From Lachnospiraceae bacterium (lineage in GTDB: Bacteria; Bacillota; Clostridia; Lachnospirales; Lachnospiraceae), in assembly GCA_021199395.1 (NCBI GenBank), contig JAJQIE010000179.1, positions 1-18,210 on the forward strand: a stretch of 18,210 nt of DNA. Reading direction: 5' to 3'. Position numbers and translations under genes: made by a program. Positions within the stretch are counted from its first letter, which is position 1. Each line of letters starts with the position of its first letter. The notes below the pieces were generated by a model that saw only the letters and a list, made by a program, of their open reading frames with translations, did no database searches and was not told the DNA's origin. Positions 1 to 9,740 of the stretch are shown one piece after another.

Positions 1-210
1 ATACACAGACAGTTGCTGAATTACCGGGATCAGGGAAACTCTGTGATTCTGATTTCCAGTGAACTCACAGAGATTATGAGCCTTTCTGACCGTGTGATTG
101 TAATGTACAAAGGCAGAATTTCAGGAGAGGTAGACCCGAAAACCGTGAGCACAATGCGGGTAGGTCTTCTTATGGCTGGAATTACAGAGGCAAAGGAGGC
201 GAATCAGTGA
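1..210 (+). CDS. Sugar/nucleoside ABC transporter ATP-binding protein, C-terminal fragment
   Basis: This is the last 69 codons of a gene that starts before the window. The reading frame is open from base 1 and stops at 208-210. The visible part resembles the end of the second nucleotide-binding domain of RbsA/YufO-type double ATPases: an amphipathic helix, then LISSEL in the switch (H-loop) region, where the usual His is replaced as is common in the second domain, then DRVIVMYKGRI. Walker and signature motifs lie upstream, outside the window. It should energise uptake through the two permeases that follow directly. An AAAGGAGG site inside its last codons serves the next gene. The exact substrate cannot be read from this fragment. 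Confidence 0.85.
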   Translation: MHRQLLNYRDQGNSVILISSELTEIMSLSDRVIVMYKGRISGEVDPKTVSTMRVGLLMAGITEAKEANQ

Positions 211-1274
211 TGGAAAGAAGGATAAATGGAATACTGAGAAGTCTTTTAAATTGTCTGATTCCCATTGGGCTGGCGTTTTTTGTCGGAGGGATTGTTATTC
301 TGATGATTGGGGAAAATCCGATCGAGGCGTATGGCGTGCTTCTGAGAAAATCCTTCTTTACCGCTGTGGGATTTCAGAATACTCTGCACTATGCCGGCCC
401 GATGATCCTGACCGGTCTGGCTATTGCCGTGACATTTAAGGCGAATATCTATAATATGGGAGTTGAAGGGTCACTGCTGATCGGCGCGTTTTCCGCAGGT
501 ATCGTAGGAGCGAATCTGACCGGACTTCCTTCTCCTGTGGTAAAGCTCCTCTGCTTTGCGGTAGCGATCGTCTTTGGCGTGGCTTTTGCACTGATTGCGG
601 CTGTGCTGAAGGTAAAGTTCCGCGCTGATGAGATGGTAGTGACCATGATGATGAATTACGCATTGTCAAAGGTACTGGAATATCTGGCTACCACAGTGTT
701 CCGGGACAGCGGCAGCGGTTATGTATGTACGCCGGTTGTCAGCGACAAGGCGATGTTTATGCGTATTTTTGGAAGATCCAGGTTGACTTTGTTTTTTTTC
801 ATAGTAATAGCTTTGCTCATTATTATGTACATAGTGATGAAAAAGTCAAAGCTCGGATATGAGATTACTGCGATGGGTCGGAATTTCGAGTTTGCGGAAG
901 CGGTCGGCATGAATGTCGGTCGTAAAATTATTACAGTTATGGTGATTTCCGGTGCGCTTGCCGGTATAGCCGGAGCCGGATGGATGATGGAGGATCAGTA
1001 CCGTTATACACTCGATTTCTCCGGAAGTCCGGGGCTTGGATGGGACGGTATGCTGATCGCGCTGATGGGCGGGCATGATCCGATTGGTATCCTGATCGCC
1101 GCGATTTTTTACGCGGGGTTAAAGACCGGCGCGGACAGCATCAATATGTATACAAATGTGCCGAAAGAGATCGTTTCACTGATTCAGGGTCTGATCGTAC
1201 TGTTCCTGGCGGTGAAATTTATCAGCGAACGGTTCCGTCCGCTGAAGTTCAAGAGCAGTGCAAAGGAGGTGTAG
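210..1274 (+). CDS. ABC transporter permease, nucleoside/BMP family (YufP-like)
   Basis: A polytopic membrane protein of about 354 residues with many hydrophobic helices, the first at about residues 10-33. The motif NMGVEGSLLIGA after the second hydrophobic stretch is typical of the branched-chain/ribose-type permease family (BPD_transp_2), especially the YufP/NupP nucleoside subgroup. The ATG at 210 shares one base with the upstream stop and has GGAGG at 195-199; an in-frame GTG at 207 is the alternative start. Tight packing with the ATPase and with a second, shorter permease matches the two-permease layout of purine/pyrimidine nucleoside importers served by a BmpA-type lipoprotein. The substrate is inferred from the family and from the nucleoside-processing genes downstream. 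Confidence 0.92.
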   Translation: MERRINGILRSLLNCLIPIGLAFFVGGIVILMIGENPIEAYGVLLRKSFFTAVGFQNTLHYAGPMILTGLAIAVTFKANIYNMGVEGSLLIGAFSAGIVGANLTGLPSPVVKLLCFAVAIVFGVAFALIAAVLKVKFRADEMVVTMMMNYALSKVLEYLATTVFRDSGSGYVCTPVVSDKAMFMRIFGRSRLTLFFFIVIALLIIMYIVMKKSKLGYEITAMGRNFEFAEAVGMNVGRKIITVMVISGALAGIAGAGWMMEDQYRYTLDFSGSPGLGWDGMLIALMGGHDPIGILIAAIFYAGLKTGADSINMYTNVPKEIVSLIQGLIVLFLAVKFISERFRPLKFKSSAKEV

Positions 1275-1277
1275 AGT

Positions 1278-2183
1278 ATGCAGCTGTTACAAAGTATTCT
1301 TTATGATTGTATTTATCACAGCGCTCCGATCATCCTCTGCGTGCTGGGAGGTATGTTTGCCTACAATGCGAACGTGTTGAATATCGGACTGGAAGGTATG
1401 ATGCTGAATGGGGCATTTATCTCGGTGCTCACGTATTACTTTACGCAGAATATGCTGCTGACTCTGGTGCTCACAATATTGAGCACACTGGTTTACGGAC
1501 TGGTGTTTTCCTTCCTTGGAGTGACGCTGAAAGGAAATGTTATCATCATTGGTCTGGCTGTCAACATGATTTCATCGGCTGTGGCGGGCTTTGTACTGGT
1601 GATTATGAATTCATCGAATATTATTTTGCAGGAGTTCGATCTGAACGCACTGAAGATCAATATTCCGATTATTCAGAGGATTCCTTTTATCGGTTCGATC
1701 GTCAGCGGACATCCTCCGATCACATATATCAGTTTTCTGATGATTTTTCTGATGTATGTATTGATGTACCACACGAAATTTGGAATCTATGTCCGTGTAG
1801 TGGGGGAGAGCGAGGAGGCTGCCAGAGCGATTGGTCTTCATATTGATTTTTACAAATATGCCGCTATCCTGATCGGAGCTGTAGGCTGCGCTCTTGGCGG
1901 GATGAACCTTTCTCTGGAGCGTCTGGGACTTTATACAAATGATATGGCTGCTGGAAGAGGTTTTATCGCTATCGCGGCTATTTACTGTGGACAGGGAAAA
2001 CCGGTGCAGTCATCGATTTATGCAATCCTGTTCGGGCTTTCGCGATCGCTTGCAGTCAATCTGAGCGTGTATGCGGGGAATGCTTCCGGATTGTTTGACT
2101 GTTTCCCATACATATTGATGATAATTGTGCTTGCGGCTTCGTCCTATGTGAAGCACAAGAGTATAAAGGTGAGAGGTTTTTAA
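1278..2183 (+). CDS. ABC transporter permease, nucleoside/BMP family (YufQ-like)
   Basis: The second permease of the importer, 301 residues, with about eight hydrophobic segments. The hallmark NIGLEGMML sequence (around residues 35-43) is the counterpart of NMGVEGSLL in the preceding permease. It starts three bases after the previous stop, with AAAGGAGG at 1262-1269. Together with the upstream ATPase and permease it would form a heterodimeric inner-membrane channel. The substrate-binding lipoprotein is not seen here and probably lies upstream of the window. The following hydrolase gene begins at the base right after this stop, so importer and enzymes are probably translated from one message. 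Confidence 0.92.
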   Translation: MQLLQSILYDCIYHSAPIILCVLGGMFAYNANVLNIGLEGMMLNGAFISVLTYYFTQNMLLTLVLTILSTLVYGLVFSFLGVTLKGNVIIIGLAVNMISSAVAGFVLVIMNSSNIILQEFDLNALKINIPIIQRIPFIGSIVSGHPPITYISFLMIFLMYVLMYHTKFGIYVRVVGESEEAARAIGLHIDFYKYAAILIGAVGCALGGMNLSLERLGLYTNDMAAGRGFIAIAAIYCGQGKPVQSSIYAILFGLSRSLAVNLSVYAGNASGLFDCFPYILMIIVLAASSYVKHKSIKVRGF

Positions 2184-2750
2184 ATGAAACAGACAGCGTT
2201 ATTAATCGTAGATATGGTAAAGGATTTTACTGATCCGGAAGGGCTTGTCTTTTATCCTCAGAACCGGGAAATCCTGCCCCGAATCCGGAAGGTGCTTGAC
2301 AGGTGCAGGGAGGAGGAATGTCTGATCGTATTTCTGCAGCATTGTAATCGAAAGAATAAGGTGGATCGGAAAATCGCCTCGATGCGTCCCAATTGTATGG
2401 AAGGGACGGACGGGATTGAGATCGACCCGATGCTTCCTGTGGATGAGAAGAAGGATTATGTCATTCGGAAACGCAGATACAGCGGATTTTTTGGAACGGA
2501 TCTGGATCTGGTGCTCAGGGAAAACGGTATTGAGAATCTGATCATTGTGGGCACAAAAACAAATTGCTGTATTCGCGCCACCGTGACGGATGCGTTTTAT
2601 CTCGACTATAATCCAATCGTGCTCAGCGACTGTGTCGCGACAAATTCTGAAACTGTAAATCAGGTGCATCTGGAGGATATCCGAAAATATCTGGGTCAGG
2701 TGATGGACAGTGAGGAACTGTTTGAAAAGCTGGGCGCGCGGGAGCTCTGA
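2184..2750 (+). CDS. Isochorismatase-family cysteine hydrolase
   Basis: A cytosolic hydrolase of 188 residues in the isochorismatase/nicotinamidase superfamily. The catalytic triad can be placed: Asp10 in LLIVDMVKDF, Lys96 in the stretch before RRYSGFFGTDLD, and Cys129 in GTKTNCCI, where the second Cys aligns with the family nucleophile. Members cleave C-N bonds in amides such as nicotinamide, N-carbamoylsarcosine and ureidoacrylate. The ATG directly follows the permease stop, with AAAGGTGAGAGG upstream. In this operon it might remove an amide or carbamoyl group from a released base or its degradation product. That role is inferred, since sequence alone does not fix the substrate in this superfamily. 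Confidence 0.88.
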   Translation: MKQTALLIVDMVKDFTDPEGLVFYPQNREILPRIRKVLDRCREEECLIVFLQHCNRKNKVDRKIASMRPNCMEGTDGIEIDPMLPVDEKKDYVIRKRRYSGFFGTDLDLVLRENGIENLIIVGTKTNCCIRATVTDAFYLDYNPIVLSDCVATNSETVNQVHLEDIRKYLGQVMDSEELFEKLGAREL

Positions 2751-2840
2751 GCGGACAGTGGAACAATGACTCGTGACCGAAAACAGACAAAAACGATAAA
2801 AGCGGTAAAAGTGGTATAAATAGAAAAGGAGGTGATATCT

Positions 2841-3791
2841 ATGGGATATGATGTGTTGACAAGTGGTTATGTCAGCATGGATCATATTATTAATGTGGCT
2901 TCCCCGGTTCGGGTCGGATATACGTCTCTGATCACGAACGCAGATAATACAAAAATACAATACGGAGGATGCTCTGTAAATATAGCAGTGGCTCTGAGTA
3001 AGCTCGGATTTCTGGCAATGCCGGTGCTCCGGGTGGGAGCAGATTGGGAAAGTAATGGATTTAAAAGGTTTCTGATGGAAGCCGGTGTGTCGCTGGATGC
3101 GACTACCGTGCTTGACGACGAGGCTACGTCTACCTGTTATCTGCTTCAGGATAATCATAATGACCACTATACGATTTTTTATCCAGGTTCCATGGATCGA
3201 AAATATGCTGTGCCAATACCGGATCAGTTTTTTGAAAATACAAAGCTTGGCGTGGTAACTGTAGCCAGCCGACAGGATAATCGGTATTTTGTGGATCAGT
3301 GTAAAAAGCATGGAGTTCCGATCGTATTTGGAATGAAGGATGATTTCGACGCGTTTCCTGCTGTCTTTCTGAAGGAGCTTCTTGAGGAAAGCAGTATTAT
3401 TTTCATGAATGAGGTGGAGCGGGAAATCATAGAGCAGATATATGGATGTTCAACGATAAAGAGACTGTTTGAGACCGGAAAGGTACAGCTTTTGATTACG
3501 ACGCTTGGTAAAGAGGGAAGCATATGTTATGAGAAAACCGCGGATGGTATAAAAGAATACCGCACGGGAATCTGTCAGGTAGATCAGGTGGTAGATGCCA
3601 CTGGATCCGGAGACGCGTTTATGTCTGGATTTCTGTATGGATACCTGAATAAGAGGCCCATACAGAAATGCTGTGAGCTTGGTACGGTTCTGGCGGCGTT
3701 CGTATTACAGAAGGAGGGATGCTGCACAAATATTCCGACCGCAGCCGAGCTTGAAGAGAGGACAGAAGAGTTCCATGTAAATGGCAGATAA
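2841..3791 (+). CDS. PfkB/ribokinase-family carbohydrate or nucleoside kinase
   Basis: 316 residues from the ATG at 2841, which has an excellent AAAAGGAGG at 2824-2832; an in-frame GTG at 2832 lies inside this site and is unlikely to be the start. Family marks are YGGCSVNIAVALSKLG near residues 41-56 (substrate-binding Gly pair), the NxxE motif as NEVE at 190-193 (Mg2+/phosphate), and the anion-hole signature DATGSGDAF at 252-260, with Asp258 as catalytic base. The enzyme transfers the ATP gamma-phosphate to a hydroxyl of a sugar, nucleoside or sugar phosphate. Next to a nucleoside phosphorylase, plausible substrates are the imported nucleoside, free pentose, or pentose 1-phosphate, as in the archaeal ribose-1-phosphate kinase of the same superfamily. 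The specificity is not resolved. Confidence 0.9.
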   Translation: MGYDVLTSGYVSMDHIINVASPVRVGYTSLITNADNTKIQYGGCSVNIAVALSKLGFLAMPVLRVGADWESNGFKRFLMEAGVSLDATTVLDDEATSTCYLLQDNHNDHYTIFYPGSMDRKYAVPIPDQFFENTKLGVVTVASRQDNRYFVDQCKKHGVPIVFGMKDDFDAFPAVFLKELLEESSIIFMNEVEREIIEQIYGCSTIKRLFETGKVQLLITTLGKEGSICYEKTADGIKEYRTGICQVDQVVDATGSGDAFMSGFLYGYLNKRPIQKCCELGTVLAAFVLQKEGCCTNIPTAAELEERTEEFHVNGR

Positions 3792-3814
3792 GAAAAACAG
3801 AATGGAGGTAAAAT

Positions 3815-4573
3815 ATGGGAACTTTATATATGGGCGCGAATGAGGGACAGATAGCAGATTATGTAATTTTCTCCGGAGATCCATGGCGTGTTGAGGTGGT
3901 TAAGAAATATCTGGATAATCCAGAAAAAATCGCGTTTCTCAGAGAATTTAATACATATACCGGTACCTACAAGGGCGTAAGGATTACGGCAAGCTCTACG
4001 GGGATGGGATCCCCGACGGCCGCCATCGCGATGGAGGAAATGTACGAGGCCGGCATGAAGGTGGCTGTGCGCATGGGGACAGTGATGGCGCTGCAGGATG
4101 GAATGCTTGGTAAATTTATTATCCCGATCGCAGCAATGCGCCGTGAATGCACCAGCGATACTTATGTGGAGAAAGCGTATCCCGCTGTGGCGGATATTGA
4201 GCTTGTGAATATCATGAATGAAACAGTGACGGATATGGGTGCGGAATATGTGAATGGCATAAGCTGTACAATGGATGGATTTTACAGTCAGATGCACGAT
4301 TCCCGTTTCTCACTGGAATCGGGAAGGAATCTGAGCGGTGTGTTTGAAGAACTGAAGAAGCTGCATGTGACTGGCGTAGATATGGAATCATCCTGCATGA
4401 TGACGCTAGGCCGTCTGATGGGCGTTAAAACCTGTGTTGTTACAATGACAACTGTACTGGAGAATCTGAAGGAAGTATTAAAGGGTCAGGAGCGCATTGA
4501 TGCGGAGGATCTGCTCTGCCGCACGGCGCTCGAAGGGATTTACCGGTACCATAGGAAAGGAGCGAAGCTATGA
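3815..4573 (+). CDS. Nucleoside phosphorylase, Udp/DeoD (PNP_UDP_1) superfamily
   Basis: 252 residues. It should split a nucleoside with phosphate into base and pentose 1-phosphate. Visible motifs are GDPWR at residues 21-25 (phosphate Arg), STGMGSPT at 61-68 (phosphate loop), VRMGTV at 85-90 and VDMES at 188-192, where the Glu contacts the ribose hydroxyls. The C-terminal region has VVTMTT where purine phosphorylases carry a catalytic Asp (SDH-like), so a DeoD role is unlikely. The uridine-phosphorylase base-binding QxR is also not clearly kept: the region reads FYSQMHDSRF. The start has GGAGG at 3804-3808. The last bases overlap the next gene as ATGA at 4570-4573, indicating translational coupling to the BtpA-family protein. 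Confidence 0.88.
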   Translation: MGTLYMGANEGQIADYVIFSGDPWRVEVVKKYLDNPEKIAFLREFNTYTGTYKGVRITASSTGMGSPTAAIAMEEMYEAGMKVAVRMGTVMALQDGMLGKFIIPIAAMRRECTSDTYVEKAYPAVADIELVNIMNETVTDMGAEYVNGISCTMDGFYSQMHDSRFSLESGRNLSGVFEELKKLHVTGVDMESSCMMTLGRLMGVKTCVVTMTTVLENLKEVLKGQERIDAEDLLCRTALEGIYRYHRKGAKL

Positions 4574-5355
4574 GTAAGGAACTGTTATCAAAAGGATCGC
4601 AGACAATTATCGGTATGGTTCATTGTCTGCCTTTGCCGGGAACCTGTGGGTTTGACGGAAATTACAGCAAAATAATGGATCGCGCGGTGGAGGACGCCAT
4701 TACGCTTGAAAAAGCCGGTGTGGATGCCCTTATCGTAGAAAATATGGGAGATACGCCATTTGCGGCATTGCTGGATAAAGCACAGATAACGGCTTTGACT
4801 GCTGCCGCGGTGAAGGTGCGGGAGGCTGTAAAGATTCCGATAGGGATAGACGCTGCTTTCAACGACTGTGAGGTATCGCTTTCGATTGCCGCAATGTGCG
4901 GCGCGAGCTTTATCCGCGTGCCGGTATTTGTAGATACCGTGCTTTTCAGCGATGGAATTATTTATCCATGCGCGCGCAAATGTATGAATTTCCGCAGAAG
5001 TATGGGGCTTGAGCATGTCAGGATCTTGGCGGATGTACAGGTAAAGCACGCGAATATGCTGAATCCGCAGATTACTGTGGAAATGAGCGCTAAGGACGCG
5101 GTAAGCAACGGAGCGGATGGAATCATTGTGACCGGAGCTGTGGTAGGTGCTGAGACGCCGATCGATATGCTGAAGCGGGTACAAAAGGTGGTAAAGGTAC
5201 CGGTATTTGCGGGAAGCGGCGTAAATCGAAGCAATATTCACGATCAGCTCCAGATCGCGGACGGATGCATTATCGGATCAAGTCTGAAAAAAGATGGCAT
5301 ACTGACAAATCCGATTGATTATGATCTTGTAAGAGAAGTGGTTGAGGCATTGTAG
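4570..5355 (+). CDS. BtpA/SgcQ family TIM-barrel protein
   Basis: 261 residues. The N-terminal IGMVHCLPLPGT and the block ALIVENMGDTPF (about residues 54-65) are characteristic of the BtpA/SgcQ family (COG0434). The C-terminal GSGVNRSN and IIGSSLKKDG look like the phosphate-binding end of a (beta/alpha)8 barrel. BtpA was first linked to photosystem I stability in cyanobacteria; SgcQ sits in an E. coli sugar operon. To my knowledge no enzymatic reaction is firmly established for the family. Overlap with the phosphorylase gene by ATGA suggests it acts on the phosphorolysis product or its phosphorylated derivative. The AGGAAAGGAG region before the start is a good binding site. The function is inferred from context only. 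Confidence 0.87.
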   Translation: MSKELLSKGSQTIIGMVHCLPLPGTCGFDGNYSKIMDRAVEDAITLEKAGVDALIVENMGDTPFAALLDKAQITALTAAAVKVREAVKIPIGIDAAFNDCEVSLSIAAMCGASFIRVPVFVDTVLFSDGIIYPCARKCMNFRRSMGLEHVRILADVQVKHANMLNPQITVEMSAKDAVSNGADGIIVTGAVVGAETPIDMLKRVQKVVKVPVFAGSGVNRSNIHDQLQIADGCIIGSSLKKDGILTNPIDYDLVREVVEAL

Positions 5356-5358
5356 TGG

Positions 5359-5376
5359 TGCAGCGAAACTGCTGCA
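5359..5376 (+). repeat. Short perfect hairpin between operon genes
   Basis: A six-base perfect inverted repeat (TGCAGC / GCTGCA) with a six-base GAAACT loop lies four bases after the btpA-like stop. No U-run follows, so it is not a standard terminator. It could be an mRNA processing or stability element, since the next gene starts 74 bases later with its own strong ribosome binding site. It could also be chance. Confidence 0.3.
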
Positions 5377-5449
5377 TGGGGATTTACTGTATATCAGTTG
5401 GAAAATTGTATCATAAACGGGCAAAAAGAACAGACAGGAGGAAAAAACT

Positions 5450-6592
5450 ATGATGAGACCAATGAAACTGGCAGGCAGTGAGCTGATGTTTGGGGAGGGC
5501 TGTCTTGCTTACATTAAAACAATGAAATATAAAAAGGTGTCGATTGTGATTGGCGGCTTCAGTATGGTAAAGAGCGGAATGCTGGATAAGGTAAAGGACT
5601 ATTTTGCGGAGACCGGGGCGGAGACTATGGTAATTTCCGGTGTGGAGCCGGATCCGCATTTTTCCACAGTCATGCGCGGAGCAGATGAGATGAAGGCATT
5701 CGAACCGGATCTGATCGTGGCGCTTGGCGGCGGTTCCGTTATGGACGCGGCGAAAACGATGTGGATTTACTATGAGCACCCGGAGTTGACAAAATTGTCA
5801 GATGTTTTTCCTCCAAACGCATTCCCTAAGCTGAGAGCAAAGGCAAAATTCTGTTGCATTCCATCGACCAGCGGAACGGCGAGCGAGGTATCCAGATCCG
5901 TTGTGATTACGGACGAGAAGGGTATCAAGCAGGGACTTGGAAATATGGAAATGATGCCGGATATTGCAATCTGTGATCCGGAGGTGACGGAATCCATGCC
6001 GCCGCATATCACCGCAGAGACCGGGATGGACGCGCTGACACATGCTCTGGAGGCGCTTGTATCAAACCGCGCGAACTATATGAGCGATATTCTGGCGAAG
6101 GCAGCGGCGAAGGATATTATAGAGAATCTGCCGAAAGCATACGAAAACGGGCATGACCGGAAGGCGAGAGAAATAATGGTAAATGCCTCGATGACAGCCG
6201 GCATGGCGTTTACAAACGTGTCCCTGGGAATTGTACATTCTATGGCACATACGTTGGGAAGCTATTTCCATATCGCTCACGGTCTGGCGGATGCGATTCT
6301 TCTGCCTTATATCATGGAGTTTAACAGTGCTGAGCCTTATGCGAAAAAAGCCTATGAGGATTTTGCGGTTTCTATTGGCAGCGATAATCTGATCGAAACG
6401 GTGAAGGAGCTGAATAACCAGGTGGGTATTCCGGAAAGTCTGAAAGCTGTGATACCGGATGAGGAAAACTATATGAGTATGCTTGATGAGATGGCTCCGG
6501 TGGCAAAGGGAGACGGCTGCACGAAAACCAATCCGATCATACCGGATCTGGATCAGTTTAAAGAACTGTTCAAAATTGCATACAGAGGCTAA
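5450..6592 (+). CDS. Iron-containing alcohol dehydrogenase
   Basis: 380 residues, the normal length for group III Fe-ADHs such as FucO. The cofactor loop GGGSVMDAAK is at residues 93-102 and PSTSGTASEVS at 138-148. The metal ligands can be assigned as Asp194, His198 (TGMDALTHA), His263 (GIVHSMAHT) and His277 (IAHGLADA), with spacing matching FucO closely. It should reversibly reduce an aldehyde to an alcohol with NAD(P)H in the cytosol. The ATG at 5450 is preceded by GGAGG at 5437-5441. Placed after a phosphorylase, a kinase and a BtpA-like protein, it may reduce a short aldehyde released by cleavage of the sugar phosphate, much as Fe-ADHs do in fermentative deoxysugar pathways. The substrate is inferred. 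Confidence 0.92.
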   Translation: MMRPMKLAGSELMFGEGCLAYIKTMKYKKVSIVIGGFSMVKSGMLDKVKDYFAETGAETMVISGVEPDPHFSTVMRGADEMKAFEPDLIVALGGGSVMDAAKTMWIYYEHPELTKLSDVFPPNAFPKLRAKAKFCCIPSTSGTASEVSRSVVITDEKGIKQGLGNMEMMPDIAICDPEVTESMPPHITAETGMDALTHALEALVSNRANYMSDILAKAAAKDIIENLPKAYENGHDRKAREIMVNASMTAGMAFTNVSLGIVHSMAHTLGSYFHIAHGLADAILLPYIMEFNSAEPYAKKAYEDFAVSIGSDNLIETVKELNNQVGIPESLKAVIPDEENYMSMLDEMAPVAKGDGCTKTNPIIPDLDQFKELFKIAYRG

Positions 6593-6610
6593 AAAGTAGG
6601 AGAACAGAGC

Positions 6611-7336
6611 ATGGAGATTATTTTATATTTGTCAAATGGATATCCGACGATAGATGCCAGCATTCAGATGGCAAAGGAATACGCGGACGCGGGATGCAGG
6701 ATGATTGAGATTGATTTTCCGTCCAGAAATCCGTTTCTGGAGAGCGAAATGATTCAAAACCGGATGCAGAAAGCGCTTGAGGTCTGCGATGATTATGACG
6801 CATACATGGAGGAAATCGTGGAGGTAAAAAAGAGCCTTCCCGATGTGAGACTGTTGGTGCTCTCTTATGAGAATACAATAAGAGAGATTGGCGTGGAGAA
6901 ATTTATCCGCTTCTGCCTGGAAAATGAGTTTCATGATGTCCTGCTCGTAGGGCTGACGAATAATGAGGTAAAGGAAAAAATCATTGCCGCGGGGCTGCGT
7001 GTGTCCTGTTATGTGCAGTACCAGATGTTGGAGGAGGAAATCGAGTCCGCAAAAAATTCAAACGGATTCGTTTATCTTCAGGCAAAGCCAAAGCCGGGAC
7101 AGGGTTATGTGAATCCAAACTATCCGACTTTAAAGGATTGTGTGCAGGGATTGCGGGATCATGGGATCGACCGTCCGATATACTGCGGAGTCGGTGTCTA
7201 CACCCCGGAGGATGTGAGAATGGTAAAAGAGGCGGGAGGAGACGCGGCTTTTATAGGGAGCACGATTTTGAAGCTGCAGGAGGATATTCCGGCGATGAAA
7301 GAGATGATTGGAAAATTTGTCGCAGAGTGCAGGTAG
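6611..7336 (+). CDS. TrpA-like TIM-barrel protein (putative aldolase/lyase)
   Basis: 241 residues, shorter than the roughly 265 of tryptophan synthase alpha. The N-terminus aligns with TrpA: LSNGYPTIDAS, then MIEIDFPSRNPF, then EMIQNRMQKAL. In this alignment Glu33 matches catalytic Glu49 of TrpA, and the catalytic Asp60 position is Glu44. Tyr155 in FVYLQAKP may match Tyr175, and FIGSTILK at 214-221 resembles the phosphate-gripping loop. There is no trpB or other trp gene nearby, so a tryptophan role is improbable. TrpA catalyses a retro-aldol cleavage that releases glyceraldehyde 3-phosphate, so a related cleavage of a phosphosugar intermediate is a reasonable guess. The start has AGTAGGAGA at 6596-6604. 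It is the last gene of the operon. Confidence 0.75.
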   Translation: MEIILYLSNGYPTIDASIQMAKEYADAGCRMIEIDFPSRNPFLESEMIQNRMQKALEVCDDYDAYMEEIVEVKKSLPDVRLLVLSYENTIREIGVEKFIRFCLENEFHDVLLVGLTNNEVKEKIIAAGLRVSCYVQYQMLEEEIESAKNSNGFVYLQAKPKPGQGYVNPNYPTLKDCVQGLRDHGIDRPIYCGVGVYTPEDVRMVKEAGGDAAFIGSTILKLQEDIPAMKEMIGKFVAECR

Positions 7337-7361
7337 ACAGAGTACGGGCAAATCAGGAGAT

Positions 7362-7396
7362 AAACAGGCAGGGAGAGGTGATTTTCCTGCCTGTTT
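7362..7396 (+). terminator. Hairpin closing the nucleoside-type operon
   Basis: An 11-base perfect inverted repeat (AAACAGGCAGG at 7362-7372, CCTGCCTGTTT at 7386-7396) lies 26 bases after the last operon gene. The A-rich and T-rich ends mean that either strand's transcript ends its stem in U's, so it may terminate transcription from both sides: the operon on plus and the ParA-like gene on minus. The U-run is only three bases, so its strength is uncertain. Confidence 0.65.
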
Positions 7397-7446
7397 GTAG
7401 TGCGCAGATCCGGGAAAGGCGCTCCCCTATCCGATTAGTAGAAGGA

Positions 7447-8223
7447 TTACCATAATTGCTGTGCGATAAATTTCAGCTGGTTTTTACATTTATCTACTGA
7501 TTTATTTACGCTCACACGCACTCTGTCAATTACTTTTGTTTCCCCCTCCTGTAATAGCTGCATTGGTTTCGACTCGATGGAAGATATACGTCCGGATCCG
7601 AGAAAATCATCAAGCATGAATAAATGATTTTCAGGAGTATTTGTGGATAAAAGCGTTCTGTGTTTGGAAAGAATATCATAAACCTTTTTCAGATAAACTT
7701 TGGTCTGCTTATTTGGTTCATTTCTGGCGTCGGCAACAGTTGACCATCCGCAATGCGTCAATACTACCATCTGTATTTTTGGAACATTGAGGTCATTATC
7801 AGGAAGATATTTTCTGAATTCACTTTGAGGGCTGCTTAGTGTATTGATCAATAATTCAAGAGATTTAATGGATTGTTGATCTGTCCTTACCGGTATGATC
7901 AGGGCGTCTGCCGCATACAAGGAAAGCTGAGTGGCTCCTGCAAAAAATGGAGAGGTATCTATGATACATTTATCCAGATTATTTTCAGAAAGCTCTCTGT
8001 TAATTTCTGTCTGTAATGAATAAAGAATGCTTTTTAAGGCCTGTTCACGCTGTGCGGGCTGTAATCCGGACGTCTGATTAATTGCGGTAATTAATTGAGA
8101 AGGCAATAAGTATAATTCCTCAGAAGAAGGAATATAGTAGTTATTTCGTATTGAAAAATAAGGATTTGTAGCCCCAATATAGGAAGCTACTCTGCCTGTG
8201 AAAAAGAAAATACCTCTTGACAA
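7447..8223 (-). pseudogene. ParA-like partition ATPase, N-terminally truncated (no P-loop)
   Basis: An open frame of 258 codons. The region KCIIDTSPFFAGAT (about residues 85-98) is the ParA/MinD-type switch/Walker B strand with Asp89, followed by AADALIIPVRTDQQSIKSL, which is characteristic of ParA ATPases. The deviant Walker A (KGGVGKT-like), normally within the first 20 residues, is missing. The frame begins with a TTG only, has no ATG, and upstream runs into a stop at 8278-8280 inside the metK riboswitch, so there is no room for the lost domain. Base composition is clearly more AT-rich than its neighbours. No ParB, relaxase or replication gene is near. It is most likely the residue of an integrative element or plasmid; a functional P-loop-less protein is the alternative. 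Confidence 0.7.
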
Positions 8224-8245: not shown

Positions 8246-8276
8246 ATACCTCGTACAGATGAACAAAGGCTTTTCT

Positions 8277-8399
8277 CTTATTCAGAGTGGTGGAGATACA
8301 AAGGATCTGTGAAGCCACGGCAACCCCGGCGAAGGACGTCCGATGAAGGATGGAGCGTTCGGAAGGTGCCAACCTGAGCGAGTAAACTCGAACAATAAG
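8277..8399 (+). ncRNA. SAM-I (S-box) riboswitch aptamer
   Basis: The leader matches the SAM-I consensus. P1 is formed by CTTATT (8277-8282) and AATAAG (8394-8399). Next come the AGAG/GTGG strand, the conserved GAAGCCACGGCAACC core at about 8311-8325, and AGGTGCCAACCT at about 8364-8375 for the J3/4-P4 region. SAM binding stabilises P1 and lets the following terminator form, switching off metK, which is a standard target. Nothing in the core looks damaged. Confidence 0.95.
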
Positions 8400-8422
8400 G
8401 GGATTTGATGATTGAATGATTG

Positions 8423-8543: not shown

Positions 8544-9740
8544 ATGAAAAAAGTGGACAGATTTTTATTTACTTCGGAATCGGTAACAGAGGGACATCCG
8601 GATAAGATGTGCGATCAGATTTCAGATGCGGTGCTGGATGCGCTGCTTGAGCAGGATCCGATGAGCCGCGTGGCGTGCGAGACTGCTACGACAACCGGGC
8701 TTGTGCTTGTCATGGGTGAGATATCCACAAAGGCCTATGTGGATATCCAGAAGATTGTGCGCGATACGGTGCGTGAAATCGGCTATACCAGAGGAAAGTA
8801 TGGATTTGACGCGGACACCTGTGGTGTGATTACCGCGATTGACGAGCAGTCGCCGGATATCGCGATGGGGGTGGATAAGGCGCTGGAAGCGAAGGAAAAC
8901 CGGATGAGCGATGATGAGATTGAAGCGATCGGAGCCGGGGATCAGGGTATGATGTTTGGATACGCCACAAATGAAACGGAGGAATATATGCCGTATCCAA
9001 TTTCGCTGGCACATAAGCTGGCGCGCCAGCTGACAAAGATTCGCAAGGACGGTACGCTCCCTTATCTGAGACCGGATGGAAAGACACAGGTGACGGTAGA
9101 ATATGATGAGAACGGCAGGCCGTTCCGGCTGGACGCGGTTGTGCTTTCGACGCAGCATGACCCGGATGTGTCACAGGAGCAGATTCATGAGGATATCAGA
9201 AAATACGTGTTTGATGTGATTCTTCCGCAGGATATGGTTGACGAAAATACAAAATTTTTTGTAAATCCGACCGGAAGATTTGTGGTCGGCGGGCCGAACG
9301 GCGACAGTGGACTGACGGGACGCAAGATTATCGTAGATACCTATGGCGGATACGCGAGACACGGCGGCGGCGCTTTCTCAGGAAAAGACTGCACAAAGGT
9401 AGACCGTTCCGCAGCATACGCGGCGCGCTATGTGGCGAAGAATATCGTAGCCGCGGGACTGGCGGACAAATGTGAGATTCAGCTTTCCTACGCGATTGGC
9501 GTGGCAAGGCCGACGTCGATTATGATAGATACCTTCGGCACCGGCAGGATTTCTGACGAAAAGCTGACAGAGATTGTCCGTGAGAATTTTGACCTGCGTC
9601 CGGCTGGCATTATCAAAATGCTGGATCTGCGCCGTCCGATTTATAAACAGACGGCGGCATACGGACATTTTGGAAGAAATGATCTGGATCTTCCATGGGA
9701 AAAGACCGACCGCGCGGAGATCCTGAAGAAGTACCTGTAA
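8544..9740 (+). CDS. metK: S-adenosylmethionine synthetase
   Basis: 398 residues from the ATG at 8544, the standard family length. It makes SAM from methionine and ATP in the cytosol. Seen motifs are [14 protein letters not shown] at the N-terminus (His18, Asp20, Lys21 by this start), [12 protein letters not shown] near residues 130-141 and the P-loop-like GGGAFSGKD near 274-282, all hallmarks of MetK. The start is debatable. The ATG at 8544 directly abuts AAAGG, leaving poor spacing, whereas an in-frame GTG at 8553 would have AAAGGA eight bases upstream and give an N-terminus [10 protein letters not shown], closer to known MetK proteins. Control is by the SAM-I riboswitch directly upstream. 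It is followed after 30 bases by an aldo/keto reductase. Confidence 0.97.

Follow-up and report, generated by a model that had tools for sequence, protein, structure and literature searches.

A conserved operon in several bacterial phyla that may degrade nucleosides by using BtpA-family and TrpA-like proteins

What is the function of the run of nine genes that opens contig JAJQIE010000179.1 from the draft genome of a Lachnospiraceae bacterium (GCA_021199395.1, 353 contigs)? The window analyzed here is this one entire contig (18,210 nt), and open reading frame (ORF) coordinates together with Pfam profile searches place nine plus-strand genes within positions 1-7336. An earlier examination of the DNA letters (the sequence-only reading) had proposed that they form a nucleoside-type catabolic operon. 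We find that the grouping is one conserved functional unit and not a chance arrangement. Furthermore, with a probability of roughly 0.4, we favor the view that this is a GntR-controlled operon that imports a nucleoside and consumes its sugar by way of a pentose (bis)phosphate, an isomerase, a retro-aldol cleavage, and an alcohol. What was observed directly is the gene content and order, the conservation of both, the active-site residues that are kept, the predicted folds, and a transporter swap. The features, including genes for components of an ATP-binding cassette (ABC) importer, are as follows:

1..210, + strand: ABC transporter ATPase, C-terminal 69 codons, cut by the contig start (read from the sequence)
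207..1274, + strand: ABC permease 1 (BPD_transp_2; PF02653, 124 bits)
1278..2183, + strand: ABC permease 2 (BPD_transp_2; PF02653, 101 bits)
2184..2750, + strand: ISO, isochorismatase-superfamily cysteine amidohydrolase-like enzyme (PF00857, 148 bits)
2832..3791, + strand: PFKB, PfkB-family kinase (PF00294, 136 bits)
3815..4573, + strand: UDP, uridine-phosphorylase-like nucleoside phosphorylase (PNP_UDP_1; PF01048, 109 bits)
4570..5355, + strand: BTPA, BtpA/SgcQ-family phosphate-binding TIM barrel (BtpA, 246 bits; TIGR00259, 235.4 bits)
5450..6592, + strand: ADH, iron-containing alcohol dehydrogenase (PF00465/PF25137)
6611..7336, + strand: TRPA, tryptophan-synthase-alpha-like TIM barrel, proposed retro-aldolase (Trp_syntA, 88 bits)
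7360..7398, + strand: closing hairpin, 17 pairs (-28.8 kcal/mol, z -4.9 versus shuffles)

Adjacent genes overlap by at most 4 bases or are separated by gaps of up to about 97 bases. A start at ATG 210 is more likely for permease 1 than one at GTG 207, and PFKB has an ATG at 2841 preceded by AGGAGG. The hairpin is probably a weak terminator; only a short T run follows it, and it was not listed by a simple terminator scan that applies different loop and tail rules. The sequence-only reading had described nine same-strand genes with overlaps or short gaps and a closing hairpin, and the coordinates, profiles, and folding energy bear out all of these features. Because the contig begins inside the operon, the operon start is missing from the window; relatives carry this upstream part, which consists of a GntR regulator, a BMP binding protein, and most of the ATPase.

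Scanning across GTDB with an alignment of UDP yielded 92 relatives, and the loci of the best 80 of the 92 were analyzed by calling gene matches at E ≤ 1e-8 to single queries. UDP is present in these loci by construction, since they were found through it. All six enzymes lie on one strand in 66 of the 80 loci, which span several phyla, and all eleven genes (GntR-BMP-ATPase-permease-permease-ISO-PFKB-UDP-BTPA-ADH-TRPA) are found in 60. The enzyme order is exactly ISO-PFKB-UDP-BTPA-ADH-TRPA in 60 loci, and the ATPase, permease 1, and permease 2 are matched in 73, 74, and 75 of the 80, respectively. Among the 66 loci, the weakest enzyme match is at 26-28% identity in L098 and L097, and at 37% or above in the other 64. 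Within the bacterial family, a TRPA match occurs in 10 of the 299 genomes searched (the window's own included), and eight of the nine others (L012-L019) carry the same eight complete window genes in identical order, with complete ATPase-length ORFs preceding permease 1. The sequence-only reading had named genome-neighborhood co-occurrence as a check on whether the genes form one functional set, and such conservation is what the survey found.

Of the 14 incomplete loci, nine run into a contig end (L037, L045, L051, L063, L066, L069, L072, L095, and L096), and L099 and L100 are UDP paralogs without an operon. This leaves three exceptions, L073, L094, and L089. L089 is missing ISO and PFKB as well as the beginning of UDP. 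There is no run of N at that place, and the gap is either a deletion or a misassembly. Record titles assign the carriers to Lachnospiraceae, Ruminiclostridium, Clostridium, Olsenella, Atopobium, Spirochaetes, Anaerolineaceae, Izimaplasma and other Tenericutes, Sporolactobacillus, and a metagenome-assembled genome (MAG) of Anaerobiospirillum. The window UDP is closer to the Olsenella UDP (68-72% identity) than to that of Ruminiclostridium (60-62%), which suggests that the operon may have been transferred between lineages.

The importer offers a clue to the substrate. Among solved structures, the relatives of the BMP protein of L014 include Lbp (64 bits), BmpD (51 bits), BmpA (47 bits), and TmpC (39 bits), in addition to others, and we take TmpC/PnrA and BmpD to bind purine nucleosides. 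In the Anaerobiospirillum MAG (L064), the ABC genes are unmatched and a PF03825 nucleoside:H+ symporter (449 bits) precedes PFKB-UDP-BTPA-ADH-TRPA-ISO. The replacement of the ABC importer by this symporter indicates a nucleoside substrate, and it supports the proposal that the operon imports a compound of this type.

The UDP protein matches the nucleoside phosphorylases at the family level, and its phosphate site appears to be intact. Residues R25, R43, R86, and T89 are each conserved in at least 81 of 82 copies (R43 and R86 in all 82), as is E191 in all 81 copies with a letter there; the roles of these residues, in the phosphate site and elsewhere, are presumed. The identity of a standard uridine phosphorylase is ruled out by a score of 161 bits against the TIGR01718 cut-off of 280.3 bits. 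An alignment that pairs query residue 7 with chain residue 10 of 1k3f places Tyr5 at the position of residue 8 in E. coli uridine phosphorylase, presumably a His that contacts O5′. All 79 operon copies counted have Tyr at this putative O5′ position, whereas three non-operon paralogs (the second copy in L057 and those of L099 and L100) have His, and therefore C5′, or the binding of C5′, seems to differ in the operon enzyme. As a separate observation, L097 (8265-15134) carries three tandem UDP paralogs and L098 carries two, in the rearranged order UDP-PFKB-TRPA-ADH-ISO-BTPA.

Tyr5 is the sole hint of a 5′-altered substrate. Perhaps, then, the operon handles a 5′-deoxy or otherwise 5′-modified nucleoside in the manner of the dihydroxyacetone phosphate (DHAP) shunt. 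UDP would split the nucleoside, BtpA would replace MtnA, and TRPA would replace Ald2 to give DHAP and an aldehyde reduced by ADH, with the kinase either having another role or taking a nucleosidase product. In addition to Tyr5, this possibility gains from the ADH, which is closest to the alcohol dehydrogenase domain of AdhE (best solved relative 3zdr), a domain that we take to reduce acetaldehyde, and from the presence of standard pentose routes in most of the genomes. However, PFKB keeps residues that we associate with 5-hydroxyl kinases, and a 5′-deoxy sugar lacks that hydroxyl; moreover, the MtnK, MtnA, and Ald2 families are unmatched in the operon. On balance, we regard this DHAP-shunt-like handling of a 5′-altered nucleoside as unlikely.

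Residues N50, D261, N193, and E196 of PFKB occur in 75 of 75 copies and D17 in 72 of 75, and we presume that D261 is the catalytic Asp and that the set corresponds to the residues with which 5-hydroxyl kinases bind ribose and carry out catalysis. Basic residues R67 (72 of 75) and H112 (73 of 75) stand where MJ0406 and the Burkholderia 3b1n protein have Cys or Thr and Gln, and the pair would therefore suit an anionic substrate. The best solved relative of PFKB is MJ0406, which is titled SUGAR KINASE and which we take to be a nucleoside kinase. This relationship, along with a UDP O5′ residue unlike that of nucleoside phosphorylases, is consistent with a route in which PFKB phosphorylates the nucleoside first and UDP then cleaves a nucleoside 5′-phosphate, with Tyr5 in the 5′-phosphate pocket. 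Such an order is nevertheless unlikely given that MJ0406 and the 3b1n protein have neutral residues in place of R67 and H112, and that UDP scores 161 bits for uridine phosphorylase versus 61 for AMP nucleosidase.

Next in gene order after UDP is the BtpA homolog. BTPA exceeds the TIGR00259 cut-off for the BtpA/SgcQ family (235.4 versus 153.4 bits) and in this respect resembles that family, but it is unlike the photosystem I BtpA, falling far under the corresponding cut-off (197 versus 400 bits). Its predicted model has a predicted local distance difference test (pLDDT) score of 93.5, with fold relatives that are MfnB-, ThiE-, or HisF-like. In other loci, BtpA is accompanied by kinases of the FGGY or PfkB families, by dihydroxyacetone kinase domains, or by a DeoC-family aldolase. 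One such locus, L159 (300-14236), groups a divergent BtpA with genes for a PfkB kinase, a SIS protein, a BMP-type ABC transporter, and an amidohydrolase, as well as one of the xanthine-dehydrogenase type; this cluster is possibly a different BtpA pathway, perhaps for purine compounds too. In L073 (Sporolactobacillus shoreae, 453-1882), a divergent BtpA (32%) overlaps a TrpF-family gene, upstream and on the opposite strand.

The TrpA-like protein shares the catalytic acid pair of the tryptophan synthase alpha subunit (TrpA), which we take to be Glu49/Asp60 in E. coli numbering. E33 is kept in 47 of 49 copies and E or D at position 44 in 48 of 49, compared with E/E in five real TrpA proteins, and G195 and G216 occur in 49 of 49. 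The pocket is polar, with R51, Y134, and Q157 in place of A, L/M, and V in the five real TrpA; K159 is less strict (35 of 49) and is S in those five. Compared with the real TrpA proteins of five operon-carrying genomes, TRPA shows 22-24% identity, and those five form their own clade with support 1.0 in a midpoint-rooted tree. The protein scores 81.9 bits against the TIGR00262 cut-off of 102.35 bits, and trpB is unmatched in all 89 operon or related loci (the 80 loci plus L012-L020). The polar pocket, the score, and the absence of trpB nearby indicate that TRPA is not a tryptophan synthase.

Automatic names would make the cluster a housekeeping mix that includes the alpha subunit of tryptophan synthase and a factor for photosystem assembly. 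Among the best 120 of 756 TrpA-like proteins (E ≤ 1e-25), the source name is tryptophan synthase alpha wherever one is given, and three of the nine genomes (G232, G178, and G113) show no other TrpA-type gene above cut-off. In contrast, a separate TrpA-type gene is found in the remaining six (matched as two pieces in the window's genome), and in five of these it lies inside a trp block, one verified by Pfam. When combined with the score and trpB results and with a gene order conserved across phyla, these data already make the housekeeping explanation very unlikely, to the point of being hardly credible, and the tryptophan synthase alpha label on TRPA is likely a widespread misannotation. As a side observation, a 30% TRPA relative in L020 (3556-7709) has as neighbors a mannose-family phosphotransferase system (PTS), a pair of ADP-ribosylglycohydrolase-family genes, and an Fe-ADH at 27% identity, an arrangement that hints at a related pathway fed by PTS uptake. 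A survey of 398 genomes turned up no other cluster of this type.

The two remaining enzymes are ADH and ISO. In ADH, residues D194, H198, H263, and H277 are invariant in 74 sequences. ISO carries D10, K96, and C129 in 76 of 76 copies, presumably as a triad. Matched in 75 of the 80 loci, ISO is also the enzyme that differs least between the window and its eight family relatives (73-80% identity). Its prevalence and its similarity among relatives might mean that the operon serves the base of a modified or amide-bearing nucleoside such as nicotinamide riboside, with ISO catalyzing the key step and the sugar enzymes clearing a by-product. This seems improbable because ISO is well under the cut-offs for nicotinamidase (40 of 174 bits), RutB (82 of 378), and biuret hydrolase (58 of 370), and because no base-salvage enzyme was seen among the 25 largest flanking gene clusters, as judged by eye. 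A VOC/glyoxalase-fold gene lies inside or ends the operon in 17 of the 80 loci (e.g., L035:13661).

Returning to the nucleoside-sugar pathway that we favor, its steps would proceed as follows. Under GntR control, the BMP protein, the ATPase, and the two permeases would import a nucleoside, from which UDP would split off the base with phosphate to yield a pentose 1-phosphate. PFKB would then add the 5-phosphate, and the same bisphosphate would result if the nucleoside were phosphorylated first. It seems reasonable to speculate that BTPA, with its phosphate-binding barrel and HisF-like fold relatives, converts the aldose phosphate to a ketose phosphate. TRPA, with its Glu/Glu(Asp) pair and phosphate loops, could cleave this compound in a retro-aldol reaction to a triose phosphate and a two-carbon aldehyde, which the Fe-ADH might reduce to an alcohol to regenerate NAD+. 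In the weakest step, ISO may hydrolyze an amide or ureide, derived either from the base or from a modified nucleoside. If BTPA and TRPA perform the middle steps, they are non-homologous replacements of an isomerase and an aldolase. We hold more tentatively, as possible yet doubtful, the broader claim that bacteria degrade nucleosides through a pentose (bis)phosphate by using a BtpA-family isomerase and a TrpA-derived aldolase, both acting on sugar phosphates. The sequence-only reading had called for a nucleoside-type importer, a phosphorylase, a PfkB kinase, and a TrpA-like protein, and the BMP relatives, the symporter swap, the family-level matches, and the kept catalytic residues agree with these assignments as far as sequence can indicate.

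Several observations weigh against this pathway. The outline covers five of the six enzymes, leaving ISO without a firm place, and L073 and L094 lack BTPA in the operon and ADH, respectively. PFKB is far under curated cut-offs for ribose-1-phosphate kinase (63 of 330 bits for NF053626 and 61 of 500 for another) and matches other kinases better, most of all 5-dehydro-2-deoxygluconokinase (100 bits against a cut-off of 300). The uniform Tyr at the O5′ position of UDP is a poor fit to ordinary ribose. Family profiles found no known pentose-phosphate isomerase, sugar aldolase, or phosphatase among the operon genes. Without a phosphatase in the operon, a ketopentose 1,5-bisphosphate would be cleaved to give glycolaldehyde phosphate as one product, and an Fe-ADH for small aldehydes is not an obvious match to that compound. 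A histidine phosphatase-GNAT fusion found beside clusters with two TRPA genes (L093:14200-15204 and L098:15991-16971) might be the missing phosphatase in these two loci; it was not seen in the other variant loci listed gene by gene. Finally, deoB and deoC are each present in eight of the nine cassette-carrying genomes, the window's among them. Ordinary nucleosides therefore do not need the operon route, which keeps the unusual-sugar alternative alive, and the operon probably serves something that standard pathways handle less well or not at all.

The sequence-only reading had compared the operon with the DHAP shunt for 5′-deoxynucleosides, which uses MtnN, MtnK, MtnA, and Ald2 and leads from a nucleoside to a triose phosphate and an aldehyde that becomes an alcohol (PMC10986504). 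This likeness stands in outline, as does the absence of the MtnA and Ald2 families from the operon (none of the four families is matched among its eight complete proteins), but another pathway is the closest parallel. As described in PMC9700705, the haloarchaeal non-carboxylating pentose bisphosphate pathway converts guanosine to ribose 1-phosphate (R1P), ribose 1,5-bisphosphate (R15P), ribulose 1,5-bisphosphate (RuBP), and ribulose 1-phosphate (Ru1P), and then to DHAP and glycolaldehyde, which becomes ethylene glycol. The enzymes named there are a phosphorylase (Urdpase1), an ATP-dependent R1P kinase (RbsK), an R15P isomerase, a HAD hydrolase, FucA, and a reductase (PMC9700705), and the operon resembles this set in its phosphorylase family, its candidate kinase, and the proposed outline of isomerase, aldolase, and aldehyde reductase that follows.

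The operon also departs from the haloarchaeal pathway. It has BtpA and a TrpA-like protein in place of an eIF2B-type isomerase, a HAD phosphatase, and FucA, it adds a dedicated ABC importer and an amidohydrolase, and its bacterial hosts mostly hold deoB too. We presume that the haloarchaeal R15P isomerase is of the eIF2B type; this type is not encoded in the operon, and any IF-2B member is found in only four of nine genomes. A search limited to the operon likewise found neither a HAD RuBP phosphatase nor a FucA-type aldolase among the eight complete proteins, and the Fe-ADH is a candidate for the glycolaldehyde reductase. E. coli yegTUV is also similar in what we take to be its nucleoside transporter, glycosidic-bond hydrolase, PfkB kinase, and GntR regulator, and presumably differs in having no BtpA, TrpA-like protein, or ADH.

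We found no account of this gene set in our literature searches, and the operon enzymes are currently mislabelled or without a known function. The kit looks complete for nucleoside import and sugar breakdown. Anaerobes of the gut, the mouth, and the environment carry the cassette widely, but labels such as tryptophan synthase alpha conceal it. We regard it as a putative operon for nucleoside catabolism with a new set of enzymes, whose significance rests on the tentative assignments of BtpA and the TrpA-like protein. If true, these assignments would represent, as far as our literature searches show, the first enzymatic role for the BtpA family, the turning of the TrpA scaffold into a sugar-phosphate aldolase, an independent counterpart of the haloarchaeal route, and an extra pathway for nucleoside use in the anaerobic microbiome. 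The compactness of the eleven-gene cassette and its natural variants make the BtpA and TrpA-like proposals directly testable.

Two features lie beyond the operon. A ParA/AAA_31-like gene (7447-8223, minus strand) matches only profile positions 76-172 of 177, without the N-terminal part, and looks like a truncated remnant. A SAM riboswitch (8275-8401, plus strand; RF00162, 72 bits) resides upstream of metK (8544-9740, named by eye), which is a known arrangement.

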